IMG/VR virus record: IMGVR_UViG_3300024496_000028
Coordinates: 20,125-84,124 of that record
Length of the DNA: 64,000 nt
Direction: 5' to 3' (one strand)
From: a virus
The notes beneath the pieces are model-generated. The model was not told where the DNA came from. It worked only from the letters and a program-made list of their open reading frames with translations, and made no database searches. A program made the position numbers and the translations under genes. This document shows, piece by piece, positions 21,322 to 64,000 of this stretch (position 1 is its first letter; every line of letters starts with the position of its first letter).

Positions 21322-22731
21322 TTAGAAGGTTGACGACTGGATAGATATTCTTGACCAAATACTTGTGCTTCCGTCATAAAATCCGCTACAGATATAGAAG
21401 TAAGTATTATCTAGAGTGACCATTCCGGGAACACTGCCTGGATAACCTACTGATGTAGTTGGGACAACAGAACTTACTGTAAGTGTTGGCTGTCCTGGAT
21501 TATAGAATGTAACTTCATCACCATTTAATCCGTGACCTGCGCTGATAGCAAAAGTTTCTGTAGCTGTTATAACATTGCCTACTACCGACAACACAGTTCG
21601 TTCACTTACTCCTGGTAAGCTGAATACAGCACCTGGTAATATGTTTGTAGGATCGTCGACTGTAAATGTGGTCCTAGATCCTGCTGGGATATTACCCGAC
21701 AATGTGGTCGTGATAGGTAAAGCGTTCCACACACCGTTTTTAACTACGATGTGATTGCTGTTTTCGTCAATTTTAATATCAAGGCCGTATTGTCTTACGA
21801 CGCCTATATCTTTTTCTACTCCGAGATTGATTCTATCTGATAGATATACTCTTTTGAATTTTTGGTAAGCTATAGAACCTAGATTAGTAACTCCATCTAC
21901 TTTTGGAATGACATCGTCTACGATTGTATTTCTTAGATTAATACTAACATCGTTACCATCTATTAATGGTGCTCCTCCCAAACCTGAATTATTTGGAAAT
22001 ACAGAACCATAATGATCGCCTCTGGTCTGTCCGCCGAAGGCAGCATCTGTACCATCGGTTCCTGTAGTCATCACAGTTTGACCGCCTGTAGATTTTAACA
22101 GTCCTGTTAGATTTCCGCTAACATTGCCAGTTACGTTTCCGATTACAGGACCAGTATGTGTGCCATTGCTGCTACCAGTTAAGTTACCACTAACATCACC
22201 AGTCAAGTTTCCATAAAATGTACCGTAGATCTTTCCGCTGGTGCCATCTACTATAAGTGTACTATCATCAGCAAACACAGAACCATTTAGATCACCGTGA
22301 ACATTGCCTTGTAGATTTGACACTACGTTGGTTGCGTTGACAGTATTGGCCCAAAGATTTTGCCAACGCTTGCTGGTAGTACCTAGGTCGTATGTGTTGT
22401 TAGTATTTGGGATTATGTCTGAATTAATGTCTGCTTGAAATACCACATTGTCTGTACTCGCATTACCTAATGTAATATCACCATCGGCAGTGATAGTGCC
22501 GCTGGCATGTATGTTACCACTAATGTCGATATTACCAGTACCTACAATATCATGACCATTTAGGTTGATATCGTTGATGATGCTGCTACCTGATGATAAA
22601 AATTTTCCACCTACAGTAGATCCGTCACCTATGTATAACGACTTTGTATCTGTCGTAAAAATTAATTCACCTGCCGCTGGGGTAATGGTTAACCTTTCTG
22701 CGTTGGTTCCTCTGCGTATCTTTAGGGCCAT
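21322..22731 (-). CDS. Tail fibre protein with repeat shaft
   Basis: 469 residues. It opens with MALKIRRGTNAERLTITPAA and GELIFTTDTKSLYIGDGSTV, an N-terminal module typical of phage fibres that attach to the virion. The middle is a shaft of short beta repeats (GNITGDVSGNLTGSSNGT-like, about 10-12 residues each) expected to form a trimeric fibre. The C-terminal 130 residues are a more complex beta domain, the probable receptor-binding tip. It is followed by the Ig-like gene nine bases later and preceded by another fibre gene. Confidence 0.82.
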   Translation of the reverse strand: MALKIRRGTNAERLTITPAAGELIFTTDTKSLYIGDGSTVGGKFLSSGSSIINDINLNGHDIVGTGNIDISGNIHASGTITADGDITLGNASTDNVVFQADINSDIIPNTNNTYDLGTTSKRWQNLWANTVNATNVVSNLQGNVHGDLNGSVFADDSTLIVDGTSGKIYGTFYGNLTGDVSGNLTGSSNGTHTGPVIGNVTGNVSGNLTGLLKSTGGQTVMTTGTDGTDAAFGGQTRGDHYGSVFPNNSGLGGAPLIDGNDVSINLRNTIVDDVIPKVDGVTNLGSIAYQKFKRVYLSDRINLGVEKDIGVVRQYGLDIKIDENSNHIVVKNGVWNALPITTTLSGNIPAGSRTTFTVDDPTNILPGAVFSLPGVSERTVLSVVGNVITATETFAISAGHGLNGDEVTFYNPGQPTLTVSSVVPTTSVGYPGSVPGMVTLDNTYFYICSGFYDGSTSIWSRISIQSSTF

Positions 22732-42300: not shown

Positions 42301-43021
42301 AACGATAGCTGCGACTAGTTCGACAGCGTTAACCGCAGGTAGGACATTGACACTAGATGTCGTAAATGCTGCTCGAACAGTTAAACTAGCTGGCAATATC
42401 GATATTGCCAATAATCTAACTACATCTGGTAATTTTGCTCTTACCTTAACGACTACAGCATCTACAAGTGTAACACTGCCAACTACGGGTACATTGGCCA
42501 CACTAGCAGGATCAGAAAGTCTAACTAACAAGAAACTTGGTAGTTTGACTTCGAATGGTATCGTAACTACTTCAGGTGGTGATGGCACCCTCAGTGTGTT
42601 GTCAACAACAGGTACCGGCAACGTTGTATTGGGATCAAACCCAACATTAGTTTCACCAACTTATGGCAATTCTAGTTCGACTTCTGATGCCGATGCTACG
42701 GTTGATGCTTCGACAACGACTTTCTATGCTTATGTCCAGAGCGCATCTGGTACAGCAAGAACTATCAATATCAGTAATCTTACAGCCGGTAGAGAAGTCA
42801 GGATCTATCTAAGAAATACTAACGCAGCTACTAAGGCTATCACGATTACAGCTAGCACTACTGCTTCTGGTTTTGCCAACGTAGCGATGGCAGGAAGTTT
42901 TGTAGGAGCCAATGCTGTAGGTCAAGTCAGTGCTAGTACAATAACTCTAGCAGCCACTAGTGGTACAGCTATGGTTACCGTGTTTAATGCCAACGGCACC
43001 ATAGCTGGTTCAGCAGTTTAA
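39332..43021 (+). CDS. Repeat-rich tail fibre/adhesin, 1229 residues
   Basis: Thr, Ala, Asn and Ser make up most of the second half. The N-terminal 450 residues are non-repetitive beta-rich domains. From about 450, repeats of roughly 60 residues share KGGD(I/L)TTxxxxFNL and INAFGAATTVxxG-like sequence. At about 836-1105 a block of about 140 residues (TSAAFDLxxxxTSSTALTAG up to TSNGIVTTSGGDGTLSV) is present twice. A final 120-residue domain follows. This is a long trimeric fibre with swappable repeat modules. Plus strand, converging on the gene at 43018 with a 4-base overlap. The opposite strand has a long open frame that is only a codon-bias shadow. Confidence 0.8.
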   Translation: MPAISTSPITFNPATAVNIGTDVITKNSHGFNNYQGVIYYNGGGTSIGGLVDGHKYYIIYLTANTFKLATTEQNAREIVPIDLLSVGSGSNHLLVADYTFPYDTAYIDTFRTVRFFHPTLPVVGSTLEAKSVRDSLNITLGAGMFVNGIDQDTGSVNINSAEYSMTVPLATTDINLSSTAGANQSITITPVRGISITRGGPQELKFESFGVTETDNLQSVTTRGNITSNTIYVKNLVVADIESSDGGLSGITISAGDNVTGTGTIGNPLLLSPDETQSSSAARTVTINFTAAGDGMLDYTAVYKVLDSIVSGSVVLQRQDPSTLIWSNLDSASGVVALQSYQISNIYSEVYNGAVNYRIIIDWTGNTGNVSYRIRVSFNPAPVTGVTMLTTDTDNQTLTLGSSGGTIYLNSRVDTNGLRIFENNIIGTNSNDDIVIDLNGTGALELRATTLKTDQTSFNLINTTATTLNIGGSATTITMGAATGTFNINNPTLTTPNLSTFNMNGANPSVSTTSTGTASVFNTNALTGNLFGAATAVNIGANSGTLTIGNPTITGTNATSLNLNGSSPSITTTSTGTVSVFNTNAVTGNLFGAATTIDIGASGGAGTLTIKNDNVVINGDLQVKGGDITTNQTSFNLIDGTATTVQAFGAATTLTFSTAGGTTTFRSDVVINQDLQIKGGDLTTNALTFNLLNTDATTINAFGAASTVNLATVGTTIEIGNSSGTTNINNNLVVDLDLQVKGGDITTDQTSFNLLNTTATTVNAFGAATTVSIGAATGTTTVNNALTASPANLNVTFSPTGTGTVTVNPATAGTINNMSIGVTTAAAGRFTTLKVKDTSAAFDLSVIPTSSTALTAGRSLTVDVINADRTVKLNGNIDLGGNLTTANALTTSGNFALTLTTTNTTNVTLPTTGTLATLAGSESLTNKKLGSLTSNGIVTTSGGDGTLSVTATTGSGSVVLGTSPTISGTSTSITNVGTFALRDTSAAFDLTIAATSSTALTAGRTLTLDVVNAARTVKLAGNIDIANNLTTSGNFALTLTTTASTSVTLPTTGTLATLAGSESLTNKKLGSLTSNGIVTTSGGDGTLSVLSTTGTGNVVLGSNPTLVSPTYGNSSSTSDADATVDASTTTFYAYVQSASGTARTINISNLTAGREVRIYLRNTNAATKAITITASTTASGFANVAMAGSFVGANAVGQVSASTITLAATSGTAMVTVFNANGTIAGSAV
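41839..42650 (+). repeat. Two direct repeats of about 420 bases inside the fibre gene
   Basis: The block starting near 41839 and the one starting near 42277 encode nearly the same protein sequence, including LATLAGSESLTNKKLGSLTS in both. DNA differs mainly at third codon positions, so the copy is old or under coding selection. Three shorter repeats around KGGD(I/L)TT begin near 41200, 41362 and 41550. Confidence 0.75.
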
Positions 43022-44226
43022 GCTACCTTAAGCAGGATAGTGTCTTCGTTGATACGTCCGTTGAGCTTGATGTCCACAGCCTTGATATCTTCCAAGAACT
43101 TGCGCAGTGCTACCTTGCCTGCTGCCTTAAACTCTTTCAACTGTTCTTCGGGTTTACGCAGAGTTTTTTGTACGCTCTTGTTCTCATCGAACCCGATGAT
43201 GGTCGTACCTTTGACACGCAGATCATTGTAAGCTGCCGCTACATATTTGCCCAACTTGCGAGTCTTGGTGTTGAACACCCAAACTTCTTGACTACCAATG
43301 ATATCCGCAGGATTGATAGACACTAGTTTGAGCTGGTCGTCAGTCTTTTTGTACTTCATCTTAGCGACCAACTTGTCCTTAGGCACAGCCTTCTTGACAC
43401 GTGGCTTGCGATTGACTTTGCCTTCTTGCTGTAGCATATCACAAGCACTGATGATCTCTTGGTAAAAATCATGAAGCTTCTTGATATTCTTTTTGCCTAA
43501 CCAAGCATATCCTTCTTTCAGCTGCTCGTCTTTGCCTGCCATAGCTTCAACGACTTCGTCGAACGGGCGTTGATAGATTTCTTTGATCACACGAGCATGA
43601 GCACCTTTACACTCTTTGCCCTTGAGTAGGTTAACGATCTTGATAGCCTTGGGGTCAAACCCTTCAGGATCCATCAAGAAGCTTTCGTGAGCATCTTCGA
43701 TTTCCTCGGTCATCTTAAACGCAGCTTCACGCAATCGATCTTGGATGCTAGGCTGAGGCGCAGTAGAAACTTCTTTCTTTTCTTCTTCGGGTTCTTTGAC
43801 GTCACGACCGCGTTCAATAGCATCTGCGATACGCTCCCGGAGAAAAATAGTTACAGGTTTAAGTTCGCCCATGGTGCCTGGAAGTTCTTCCCAATGCTTG
43901 GCTTCTTTCTCGTTGAAGTCTGGCATACCAGTACGCAGACAACGAGCGATTATAGCAGCCTGTGTTAGATTGAATCCATTGGCTGCTTTTGCCATACGGA
44001 TATCTTCTGACGAGTATTTGTTTTCTTTCATCCACGCATACAGATCAGGAAGAAGATCTGCGGTCTTGTATTCGGCATAGTAATAGGCTACAGCGTTACG
44101 GCGAAAACGGTGATACTGTTCGCCAGTCATCTTTTCCCAATCGGTCCACTTTGGATCAGGATTGGCACCTCGACGTGTGCCGGCTGATACGACAACTTTT
44201 TTGGGTTTGGCTTTAGTAACGGCCAT
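43018..44226 (-). CDS. Conserved phage protein, unknown
   Basis: 402 residues. Basic start (MAVTKAKPKKVVV) then DPKWTDWEKMTGEQYHRFRR. A helical central part has acidic linkers, and the C-terminal domain is strand-rich (EVWVFNTKTRKLGKYVAAAY, VKGTTIIGFDENKS). Found in other marine T4-like phages (from memory), where its role is unknown. The C-terminal part looks like a nucleic-acid- or ribosome-binding beta domain, but that is only impression. A perfect sigma-70 promoter precedes it, so it is probably early. Confidence 0.72.
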   Translation of the reverse strand: MAVTKAKPKKVVVSAGTRRGANPDPKWTDWEKMTGEQYHRFRRNAVAYYYAEYKTADLLPDLYAWMKENKYSSEDIRMAKAANGFNLTQAAIIARCLRTGMPDFNEKEAKHWEELPGTMGELKPVTIFLRERIADAIERGRDVKEPEEEKKEVSTAPQPSIQDRLREAAFKMTEEIEDAHESFLMDPEGFDPKAIKIVNLLKGKECKGAHARVIKEIYQRPFDEVVEAMAGKDEQLKEGYAWLGKKNIKKLHDFYQEIISACDMLQQEGKVNRKPRVKKAVPKDKLVAKMKYKKTDDQLKLVSINPADIIGSQEVWVFNTKTRKLGKYVAAAYNDLRVKGTTIIGFDENKSVQKTLRKPEEQLKEFKAAGKVALRKFLEDIKAVDIKLNGRINEDTILLKVA

Positions 44227-49440: not shown

Positions 49441-49551
49441 TGGTGTGGCCGGTAGGATTCGAACCTACAAAGACGGCGGCTATGCCTGTGTCCCTTTCCC
49501 GAATGCGTTTCACAACGGATTGGAGGTCTGCCATATTCCACTCACGGCCAC
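49441..49551 (-). tRNA. tRNA-like gene with abnormal anticodon arm, identity unclear
   Basis: Clear acceptor stem GTGGCCG/CGGCCAC, T arm GTAGG-TTCGAAT-CCTAC and encoded CCA. At 111 bases it is about 20 longer than a class II tRNA. In place of a 7-base anticodon loop, the middle forms a long stem AATCCGTT/AACGCATT (one mismatch) closed by GTGA, and a further CAGGC..GCC stem lies where a variable arm would be. If the loop TTGTGAA is read as an anticodon loop it would be GTG (His), but the stem then does not pair. May be a tRNA-derived RNA or decayed gene. Confidence 0.5.
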
Positions 49552-49599: not shown

Positions 49600-49632
49600 A
49601 AAAAAAAGCCCTAATCGCTTAGGGCCTTTTTT
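49600..49632. terminator. Bidirectional terminator downstream of pqqA
   Basis: Perfect 7-bp stem GCCCTAA/TTAGGGC with TCGC loop, flanked by eight A on the left and six T on the right, so it can end transcription from either side. It follows the pqqA stop by two bases. Confidence 0.9.
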
Positions 49633-49634
49633 GG

Positions 49635-49706
49635 TTATCGATTCATCACGTACATAGTGATTTCGAAACCATATCGCATTTCAACTGCTTCTGGTTTGGT
49701 CCACAT
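49635..49706 (-). CDS. pqqA: PqqA, pyrroloquinoline quinone precursor peptide
   Basis: 23 residues: MWTKPEAVEMRYGFEITMYV then MNR. This matches the PqqA family along its whole length: the MW(T/K)KP start, (L/M)RxGFE(V/I)TMY core and xNR end. PQQ is made from the Glu (15) and Tyr (19) of the ExxxY motif, both present with correct spacing. A strong SD (AAAGGAG, six bases before ATG) and a terminator right after the stop argue for a real expressed gene. The pattern resembles beta/gammaproteobacterial peptides more than alphaproteobacterial ones. No pqqB-F genes in the window, so the host must process it. It would raise PQQ supply for dehydrogenases such as methanol dehydrogenase (inference). Confidence 0.88.
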   Translation of the reverse strand: MWTKPEAVEMRYGFEITMYVMNR

Positions 49707-49724
49707 AATATTCTCCTTTATGAA

Positions 49725-49758
49725 ACATACTTGTGTACAGTATGTATCGTAATATTAC
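49725..49758 (-). promoter_or_regulatory. Two dyads in the pqqA leader
   Basis: A 10-base palindrome GTAATATTAC (49749-49758) and an inverted repeat ACATAC/GTATGT (49725-49730 with 49740-49745) lie between the upstream hairpin and the pqqA SD. Candidate -10/-35 pairs here are weak. They could be operator sites or a leader hairpin. Confidence 0.4.
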
Positions 49759-49808
49759 AGGAAAACCAACTTCAAAAACATAGTGAAAATCATGAAAATG
49801 ATATAAAG

Positions 49809-49834
49809 GAAATAGCGACTCTCGCCGCTATTTC
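49809..49834 (-). terminator. Hairpin after the outer-membrane protein gene
   Basis: Perfect 9-bp stem GAAATAGCG/CGCTATTTC with an 8-base loop, seven bases beyond the stop at 49841, followed by CTTTATAT rather than a long T run. A moderate terminator or mRNA-stabilising structure. Confidence 0.6.
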
Positions 49835-49840
49835 AGTTAA

Positions 49841-50518
49841 TTAGAAAGAAACCTTAAGTCCCATTTCTACACCATTGTCAGTGACATTGAAACCGCTGTC
49901 TAGGTTACGGTAGACATTGGCATAGATGGCCTGATTCTGCGTGTAGTTGAAAGTCATACCAGTGCCGATTTGGTGGCTCTGATAGTTGTTGGTAGTGTCG
50001 AACGCATTACGATAACGATATTGAGCAGCGTTCAATGTGATCGAGTCGGTCAGCTTATAGTCTGCGCCAGCACGAGCAACATAGTAAGAAAAGTTATTGC
50101 CATCGGTATAACGTTCACCGACACCTAAACTTCCCTTGACAGATACAGGACCCATTGGCAGCTTGTAGCCGCCGATGACTTCGATGTTCTGCTTGATAGC
50201 ACCATTGTTTGGTTGTGTTTGGCTGGTTTGGAAATTACCACCAACAAACGCACCACCGCCGATGTTACGCTCAACAGCTACCTTATAGGCATACTTGTTA
50301 GCGGTGTCGTAAACACCGTCATTAGATTCCATTCCGAATCCAAGAGCGATAGTGGTATCAGCACTGGCTACTTGTACTGGTTTTTCAGTAGGCACTGCTG
50401 ATACGACTGGAGCAGCCGCAGCAGGCTCAGTCTTCTTCTTCTTTGGTAGATCAGCAGCGATACCGGCAGACGCCAGTGCGATAACTGCTACCGCAGACAG
50501 TAGTAAAGTTTTCTTCAT
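49841..50518 (-). CDS. Outer-membrane beta-barrel protein with signal peptide
   Basis: 225 residues. Signal peptide MKKTLLLSAVAVIALASAGI-AA, cleaved before or near ADLPKKKK; AADLP-type mature starts are typical of alphaproteobacterial Omp25/Omp31-like porins. A Pro/Ala linker is followed by alternating strands (ADTTIALGFGMESND, AYKVAVERNIGGGAFVGGNF, PVSVKGSLGVGERY, SITLNAAQYRYRNA, AIYANVYRNLDSG) ending VEMGLKVSF, the C-terminal Phe needed for barrel insertion: an 8-10 strand barrel. A phage-made surface protein could block superinfection or replace a host porin. It has both a sigma-70 promoter and a GATAAATA upstream. Confidence 0.85.
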   Translation of the reverse strand: MKKTLLLSAVAVIALASAGIAADLPKKKKTEPAAAAPVVSAVPTEKPVQVASADTTIALGFGMESNDGVYDTANKYAYKVAVERNIGGGAFVGGNFQTSQTQPNNGAIKQNIEVIGGYKLPMGPVSVKGSLGVGERYTDGNNFSYYVARAGADYKLTDSITLNAAQYRYRNAFDTTNNYQSHQIGTGMTFNYTQNQAIYANVYRNLDSGFNVTDNGVEMGLKVSF

Positions 50519-63786: not shown

Positions 63787-63934
63787 CACCATTAGTTAGT
63801 AGCATAGTTTACTATCCTCTTGCTACCTATTGTTGATCTGTTACACAGACCAGTTACTAGTATCATAGGCTTCCCGCTTCGGACAAGGTTAGCCTTGATC
63901 GTAGGCCGACGAGCTATGCTACTAACTAATGGTG
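63787..63934. repeat. 21-bp perfect inverted repeat enclosing 106 bases, between two tRNA genes
   Basis: CACCATTAGTTAGTAGCATA plus G (63787-63807) is the exact reverse complement of 63914-63934. The right arm includes the CCA end of tRNA-Leu(TAG). The enclosed 106 bases hold smaller hairpins (GATCTGTTACACAGACC; AAGG-TTAG-CCTT) and no ORF. Long perfect stem plus inner stems suggests a folded RNA or a tRNA-processing structure. Confidence 0.7.
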
Positions 63935-64000
63935 CCCCAAGCGAGACTCGAACTCGCACACCGAAGTACTGGCTTCTAAGACCAGCGTGTCTACCAATTC
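63930..64000 (-). tRNA. tRNA-Leu(TAG), 5' part outside window
   Basis: Class II. Anticodon arm CTGGT-CTTAGAA-GCCAG, variable arm TACTTCGGTG, T arm GCGAG-TTCGAGT-CTCGC, CCA encoded. The acceptor 5' strand is cut by the window edge. Confidence 0.88.

Follow-up and report, generated by a model that had tools for sequence, protein, structure and literature searches.

A phage gene for the PQQ cofactor precursor PqqA and a candidate control site shared with host pqqA genes

PqqA is the peptide that methanol-eating bacteria use up to make the cofactor PQQ, and a viral version of it is already in print. The Lake Baikal virus VP_266, assigned to Methylophilaceae, carries a PqqA peptide together with a methanol dehydrogenase and was proposed to use it as an auxiliary metabolic gene for methanol oxidation (PMC7678222), and virus-encoded pqqA, pqqE and pqqD were listed in 2026 among phosphorus-cycle genes of reservoir sediments (PMC13188868). 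On the bacterial side, Methylophilaceae genomes have 3 to 12 copies of pqqA while the other pqq genes are typically single (PMC4109929), and in a PQQ-producing strain the five pqqA copies are expressed unequally (PMC9851590). Extra pqqA copies are thus already how these bacteria are built, and a phage copy adds one more. Here we describe a pqqA gene of a large phage and compare it with these systems.

A 23-codon pqqA in a jumbo-phage lineage

We analysed a stretch of 64,000 nucleotides (hereafter the window) of an 84,124-base virus record (IMGVR_UViG_3300024496_000028). The initial annotation of positions 49635-49706 as a phage-encoded PqqA is confirmed; the frame lies on the minus strand, and the plus strand does not give it. 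The features of the locus are as follows.

49635-49706, minus strand: pqqA, 23 codons plus stop TAA, encoding MWTKPEAVEMRYGFEITMYVMNR
49713-49718, minus strand: Shine-Dalgarno sequence AAGGAG, six bases before the ATG
49600-49625, minus strand: terminator of pqqA, a stem-loop (49608-49625) and eight T (49600-49607); also terminator-like on the plus strand
49752-49757, minus strand: -10-like TAATAT (4 of 6), 22 nt after the core of the control site, weak by itself
49778-49798, minus strand: candidate control site TTTTCATGATTTTCACTATGT, shared with host pqqA genes
49809-49834, minus strand: terminator-like hairpin after the upstream gene

The peptide matches two curated profiles from the first to the last model position, Pfam PF08042 PqqA (E 8.8e-9, 35.6 bits, cut-off 21.1) and NCBIfam TIGR02107 (E 1.2e-8, 34.6 bits, cut-off 20), and it carries Glu15 and Tyr19, from which PQQ is built. 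It is the only PF08042 match in the record, and a chance ORF is rejected. No PHROGs family matched it and no PDB relative was found by sequence, the search giving two chance-level rows. As the hairpin at 49809-49834 follows the gene before it, pqqA is probably a transcription unit of its own. That upstream gene (49841-50518, minus strand) encodes a 225-aa protein with sub-threshold similarity to DUF2490 and opacity porins, perhaps a phage-encoded outer-membrane beta-barrel. Rfam gave no cis-regulatory or sRNA match at the gene at its gathering score; the only match at that score is a borderline tRNA beside it (49444-49551, minus strand, 108 nt, 29.7 bits, gathering 29), which ARAGORN did not find with or without introns and which is possibly a tRNA with an insert or a decayed one.

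The window is phage DNA. It has twelve ARAGORN tRNAs, a further tRNA cut off by the window end (63933-64000, minus strand), a ClpA-like ATPase, a DnaJ protein and a protein with a major-tropism-determinant N-terminal domain (21322-22731, minus strand). After two records labelled Acinetobacter phage MD-2021a, the ClpA-like protein is nearest to jumbo phages such as Phosso and Atu_ph07. One window gene (43018-44226) is matched at 100% in six records, the longest 238 kb, and at 88% in a record of 363,943 bases. Of these seven records six carry PqqA, and the seventh, of 26.5 kb, ends before the place where the gene would lie. In the 364-kb relative pqqA lies about 76 kb from this marker gene, whereas in the window lineage it lies 5.4 kb from it, so the gene has moved.

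Distribution and selection of phage pqqA

A tblastn search of 50,697 phage records with three PqqA peptides (that of the window, a host-type one and an Acinetobacter one) returned the same 12 records each time: MEP301, MEP401, MEP402, Venkman, four Melnitz strains, P19250A, an environmental phage from Manatee Spring, and two records labelled Acinetobacter phage MD-2021a. The last two raise the possibility of host contamination or recent neutral capture of a host gene, as one of them (CAKLQF020000010.1) holds a bacterial-type pqqBCDE operon; the other (CAKLQH020000055.1) was set aside because it carries the identical peptide. However, PqqA is present in complete genomes of cultured phages and in virus records up to 364 kb, and no pqqB, C, D or E was found in the DNA examined for 163 viral loci. 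Contamination is rejected for the cultured phages, and we regard this explanation as very improbable overall. None of the ten other records has the gene annotated as PqqA, probably because it is only 23 codons long: five have no feature there and five a 'hypothetical protein', which lies on the opposite strand in the two that we opened. The papers on MEP301, MEP401/402 and Venkman contain no 'pqq' in their main text. Mosig and HTVC008M, SAR11 phages that the Melnitz paper (PMC9004378) calls related to Melnitz, have no PqqA even at E 10, in contrast to six of six methylophage-type records, which had been picked as hits; as the Mosig stretch read has another gene order, only presence or absence was compared. 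The Melnitz paper argues for a host transition between SAR11 and OM43, which would fit a gain of pqqA with the new host.

Pattern scans of viral DNA widened this set. A scan restricted to the glycine codon GGA added 90 loci to the 163, of which 89 are full-length and one is cut by the contig end, making 253 viral loci, and the true number is larger. Each of 31 larger records, chosen because they had PqqA, has exactly one. Nonetheless carriage is patchy. Of 19 records related to MEP402 by terminase (the contigs of 15 kb or more among 80 loci) two have PqqA; the others are of 15-43 kb and may be fragments, but a 42.8-kb one lacks it. Of 42 more distant relatives of the window phage (52-59% identity; 49 of 79 loci were tested) one has it. 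Accordingly, while loss of Glu or Tyr or a frameshift was not seen, the gene is absent from many more distant relatives and is an accessory gene. Grouping loci by shared neighbour genes gave 26 groups of 170 loci but chained unrelated isolates together and was not used.

When codons 15 and 19 were left free, the other codons being fixed by the search pattern, 120 of 120 viral matches keep Glu15 and Tyr19, the Tyr codons being 62 TAT and 58 TAC. On codons not fixed by the pattern dN/dS is about 0.18 over 94 distinct genes, indicating purifying selection, although synonymous sites are near saturation and the value is rough. SD words precede 152 of 162 viral and 120 of 128 host genes, against 145 of 1630 random ATGs. 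Of 163 viral peptides 62 are identical to a host peptide seen here, the window peptide shares 18 of 23 residues with its best host match, and P19250A carries exactly MWTTPAATEMRFGFEVTMYVMNK, the commonest peptide of the host scan. That scan asked for Tyr-[Val/Ile]-x-Asn-[Lys/Arg], so other tails could not be seen in host genomes. In a megablast of 25 of Venkman's 38.6 kb the only match to the Manatee Spring phage is the pqqA region, 85 bp at 90.6%.

PqqE is over the cut-off in 0 of 38 phage records (for which 31 of the 163 viral loci were used, from larger contigs), suggesting that host enzymes process the peptide; three records have weak sub-threshold matches (17-28 bits, cut-off 381), probably other radical-SAM proteins. 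In contrast, among 150 Methylophilaceae genomes drawn from a larger group PqqA is found in 149, mostly in several copies, and PqqE over the cut-off in 140, and a PQQ alcohol dehydrogenase was found in 14 of 14 tested. As the peptide alone, without enzymes, would be enough for a decoy that occupies PqqD/PqqE unproductively and lowers PQQ, such a role was considered; yet a decoy would be expected to lose Glu or Tyr at times, whereas both residues are invariant when left free and many viral peptides equal a host peptide, which makes it improbable. It is also conceivable, though unlikely, that the phage supplies PQQ for something other than methanol dehydrogenase, such as other PQQ dehydrogenases, redox protection or PQQ released at lysis. 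Three contigs with phage terminase and portal or head-tail genes carry PqqA with other tails (for example ending FKTR or INASN), so hosts other than Methylophilaceae may be involved, and only 1 of the 38 phage records, of 72 kb (locus L053; C1:34049-35731), carries a PQQ alcohol dehydrogenase of its own. Against this, every named phage with PqqA infects Methylophilales/Methylophilaceae, the two records labelled Acinetobacter phage aside.

A candidate control site shared with host pqqA

Against 12 kb of the window around pqqA, stretches of three other loci align only over 162-188 bp, that is the gene and about 100 bp upstream; a fourth aligns there and in two other pieces, and a fifth stretch, which lies elsewhere in its record, in many. 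Reading the upstream regions revealed a recurring word, and TAATGATT is in 32 of 136 phage upstreams against a mean of 0.9 in shuffles. A matrix trained on phage upstreams (consensus aTTTAATGATTTTCctTATgg) passes the threshold in 105 of 133 of them and in 63 of 111 host pqqA upstreams, but in only 10 of 800 upstreams of other host ORFs and 8 of 800 of other phage ORFs. A host-trained matrix (gacTCATGAATTTCcTTAGgc) passes in 74 of 133 phage pqqA upstreams and 6 of 800 others; as its training started from a seed taken from phages, the control upstreams, which are random draws, carry that argument. Near-duplicates and genes too close to a contig end had been dropped. On loci fetched later 63 of 86 phage upstreams pass, 60 of 75 with a Methylophilaceae-like peptide and 3 of 11 others, as expected if the site belongs to that host group. 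The sites approach an inverted repeat, TMATGA-WWW-TCATKA. The site is not universal, as 28 of 133 phage upstreams, that of L053 among them, stay below the threshold even of the matrix trained on them.

In the window four sites pass the phage matrix, and the one before pqqA scores 22.1 bits and the next 10.9; it is also the best under the host matrix (15.3, next 13.0). An exact site pattern had no match in the window because its site departs from it by one base. The distance from the site to a good -10 box is sharply set. After removal of near-duplicates it is 21-22 nt in 44 of 105 phage upstreams and 2 of 79 host ones, whereas it is 43-45 nt in 42 of 79 host upstreams and 19 of 105 phage ones, and of the other two-nucleotide windows examined none exceeds 5 in phages or 2 in hosts. 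The two classes differ by two helical turns, as expected for a DNA-bound activator that must keep its face. The -10 of the window stands at the spacing that phages favour, yet it is weak.

In four host genomes an exact pattern gave 23 distinct sites (30 strand hits; the reversed control pattern gave 8). Matched by hand to the 12 pqqA places of these genomes, six lie 96-149 nt upstream of a pqqA, so that only 6 of 12 pqqA have an exact-pattern site, one lies 184 nt before pqqB in Methylophilus methylotrophus (G001:C1:182166-182180), and 16 are unexplained. A palindromic site in the same species beside the end of a PQQ alcohol dehydrogenase gene (G001:C6:110159-110173) and the one before pqqB are hints of a wider PQQ regulon. 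However, of 30 PQQ alcohol dehydrogenase loci (seven below the family cut-off) four have a site over threshold with one matrix or the other within 500 nt, indicating that the site is not general before these genes.

One could argue that the control site is the point and that the cassette titrates a host regulator, the peptide being incidental, since the upstream region is conserved together with the gene and one site stands far above the rest of the window. We find this improbable, as the coding region is under purifying selection and has a good SD and some phage pqqA genes lack the site.

Based on these data we propose, with fairly high confidence but from sequence alone, that this is a working pqqA carried by a jumbo phage as a stand-alone metabolic gene. 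We infer that during infection a so far unidentified host factor binding the site, with host RNA polymerase, transcribes it, and that host PqqE/PqqD cross-link Glu15 and Tyr19 and the later host enzymes finish PQQ; that the site acts as an activator site is inferred from its place. As PqqA is probably consumed one for one, its supply may cap PQQ, although a rise of PQQ and a benefit to the phage remain inferences. The methylotrophic host suggested in the initial annotation also stays an inference for this very phage, strengthened by the restriction of PqqA, among named phage records, to methylophages and by the site shared with Methylophilaceae pqqA. It is conceivable, and in our view slightly more likely than not, that unrelated phages of methylotrophs, from 35-kb phages to jumbo phages, carry a portable cassette of host-type control site, promoter and pqqA that plugs into an undescribed host regulon for PQQ synthesis. 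The shorter spacing in many phages would turn a distant-acting activator site into one at the -35 edge and so retune the gene for infection.

Comparison with described PqqA systems

Methylophilaceae (OM43, Methylopumilus, Methylotenera) are important methanol consumers in sea and lake, and if their phages often bring the consumed precursor of the methanol dehydrogenase cofactor, PQQ supply may limit infected cells. The gene may also serve as a marker of methylotroph phages in metagenomes, and the shared site gives a handle on an undescribed PQQ regulon. The claim of the initial annotation that a phage-supplied precursor would be a new kind of metabolic gene does not hold, since a viral PqqA was reported in 2020. 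In the open-licence literature searched, which included no preprints and was mostly seen as listings, we found no report of pqqA as a common gene of cultured methylophages, nor of the shared site.

The Baikal virus VP_266 represents one population and has a methanol dehydrogenase, whereas here PqqA comes without a PQQ alcohol dehydrogenase in 37 of 38 records tested and is in cultured phages. The same paper states that phage P19250A encoded none of its putative AMGs (PMC7678222), yet P19250A does encode a PqqA, identical to the commonest host peptide found here; no control site is described in the section consulted. The viral pqqA of reservoir sediments was read as phosphate solubilisation, with no methylotroph link or control site in the passages seen (PMC13188868). 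The extra pqqA copies of Methylophilaceae belong to the same peptide family, often have no pqqB-E alongside (96 of 120 cellular loci, which are cut at 8 kb) and share the upstream site in 63 of 111. As only 24 of 120 of these cellular loci show the pqq neighbours, their absence from the viral loci does not set the phage genes outside the family. Unlike the bacterial copies, the phage copies lie in phage genomes, one per record in 31 of 31 records chosen because they had it, and more often have the site two helical turns nearer the -10.
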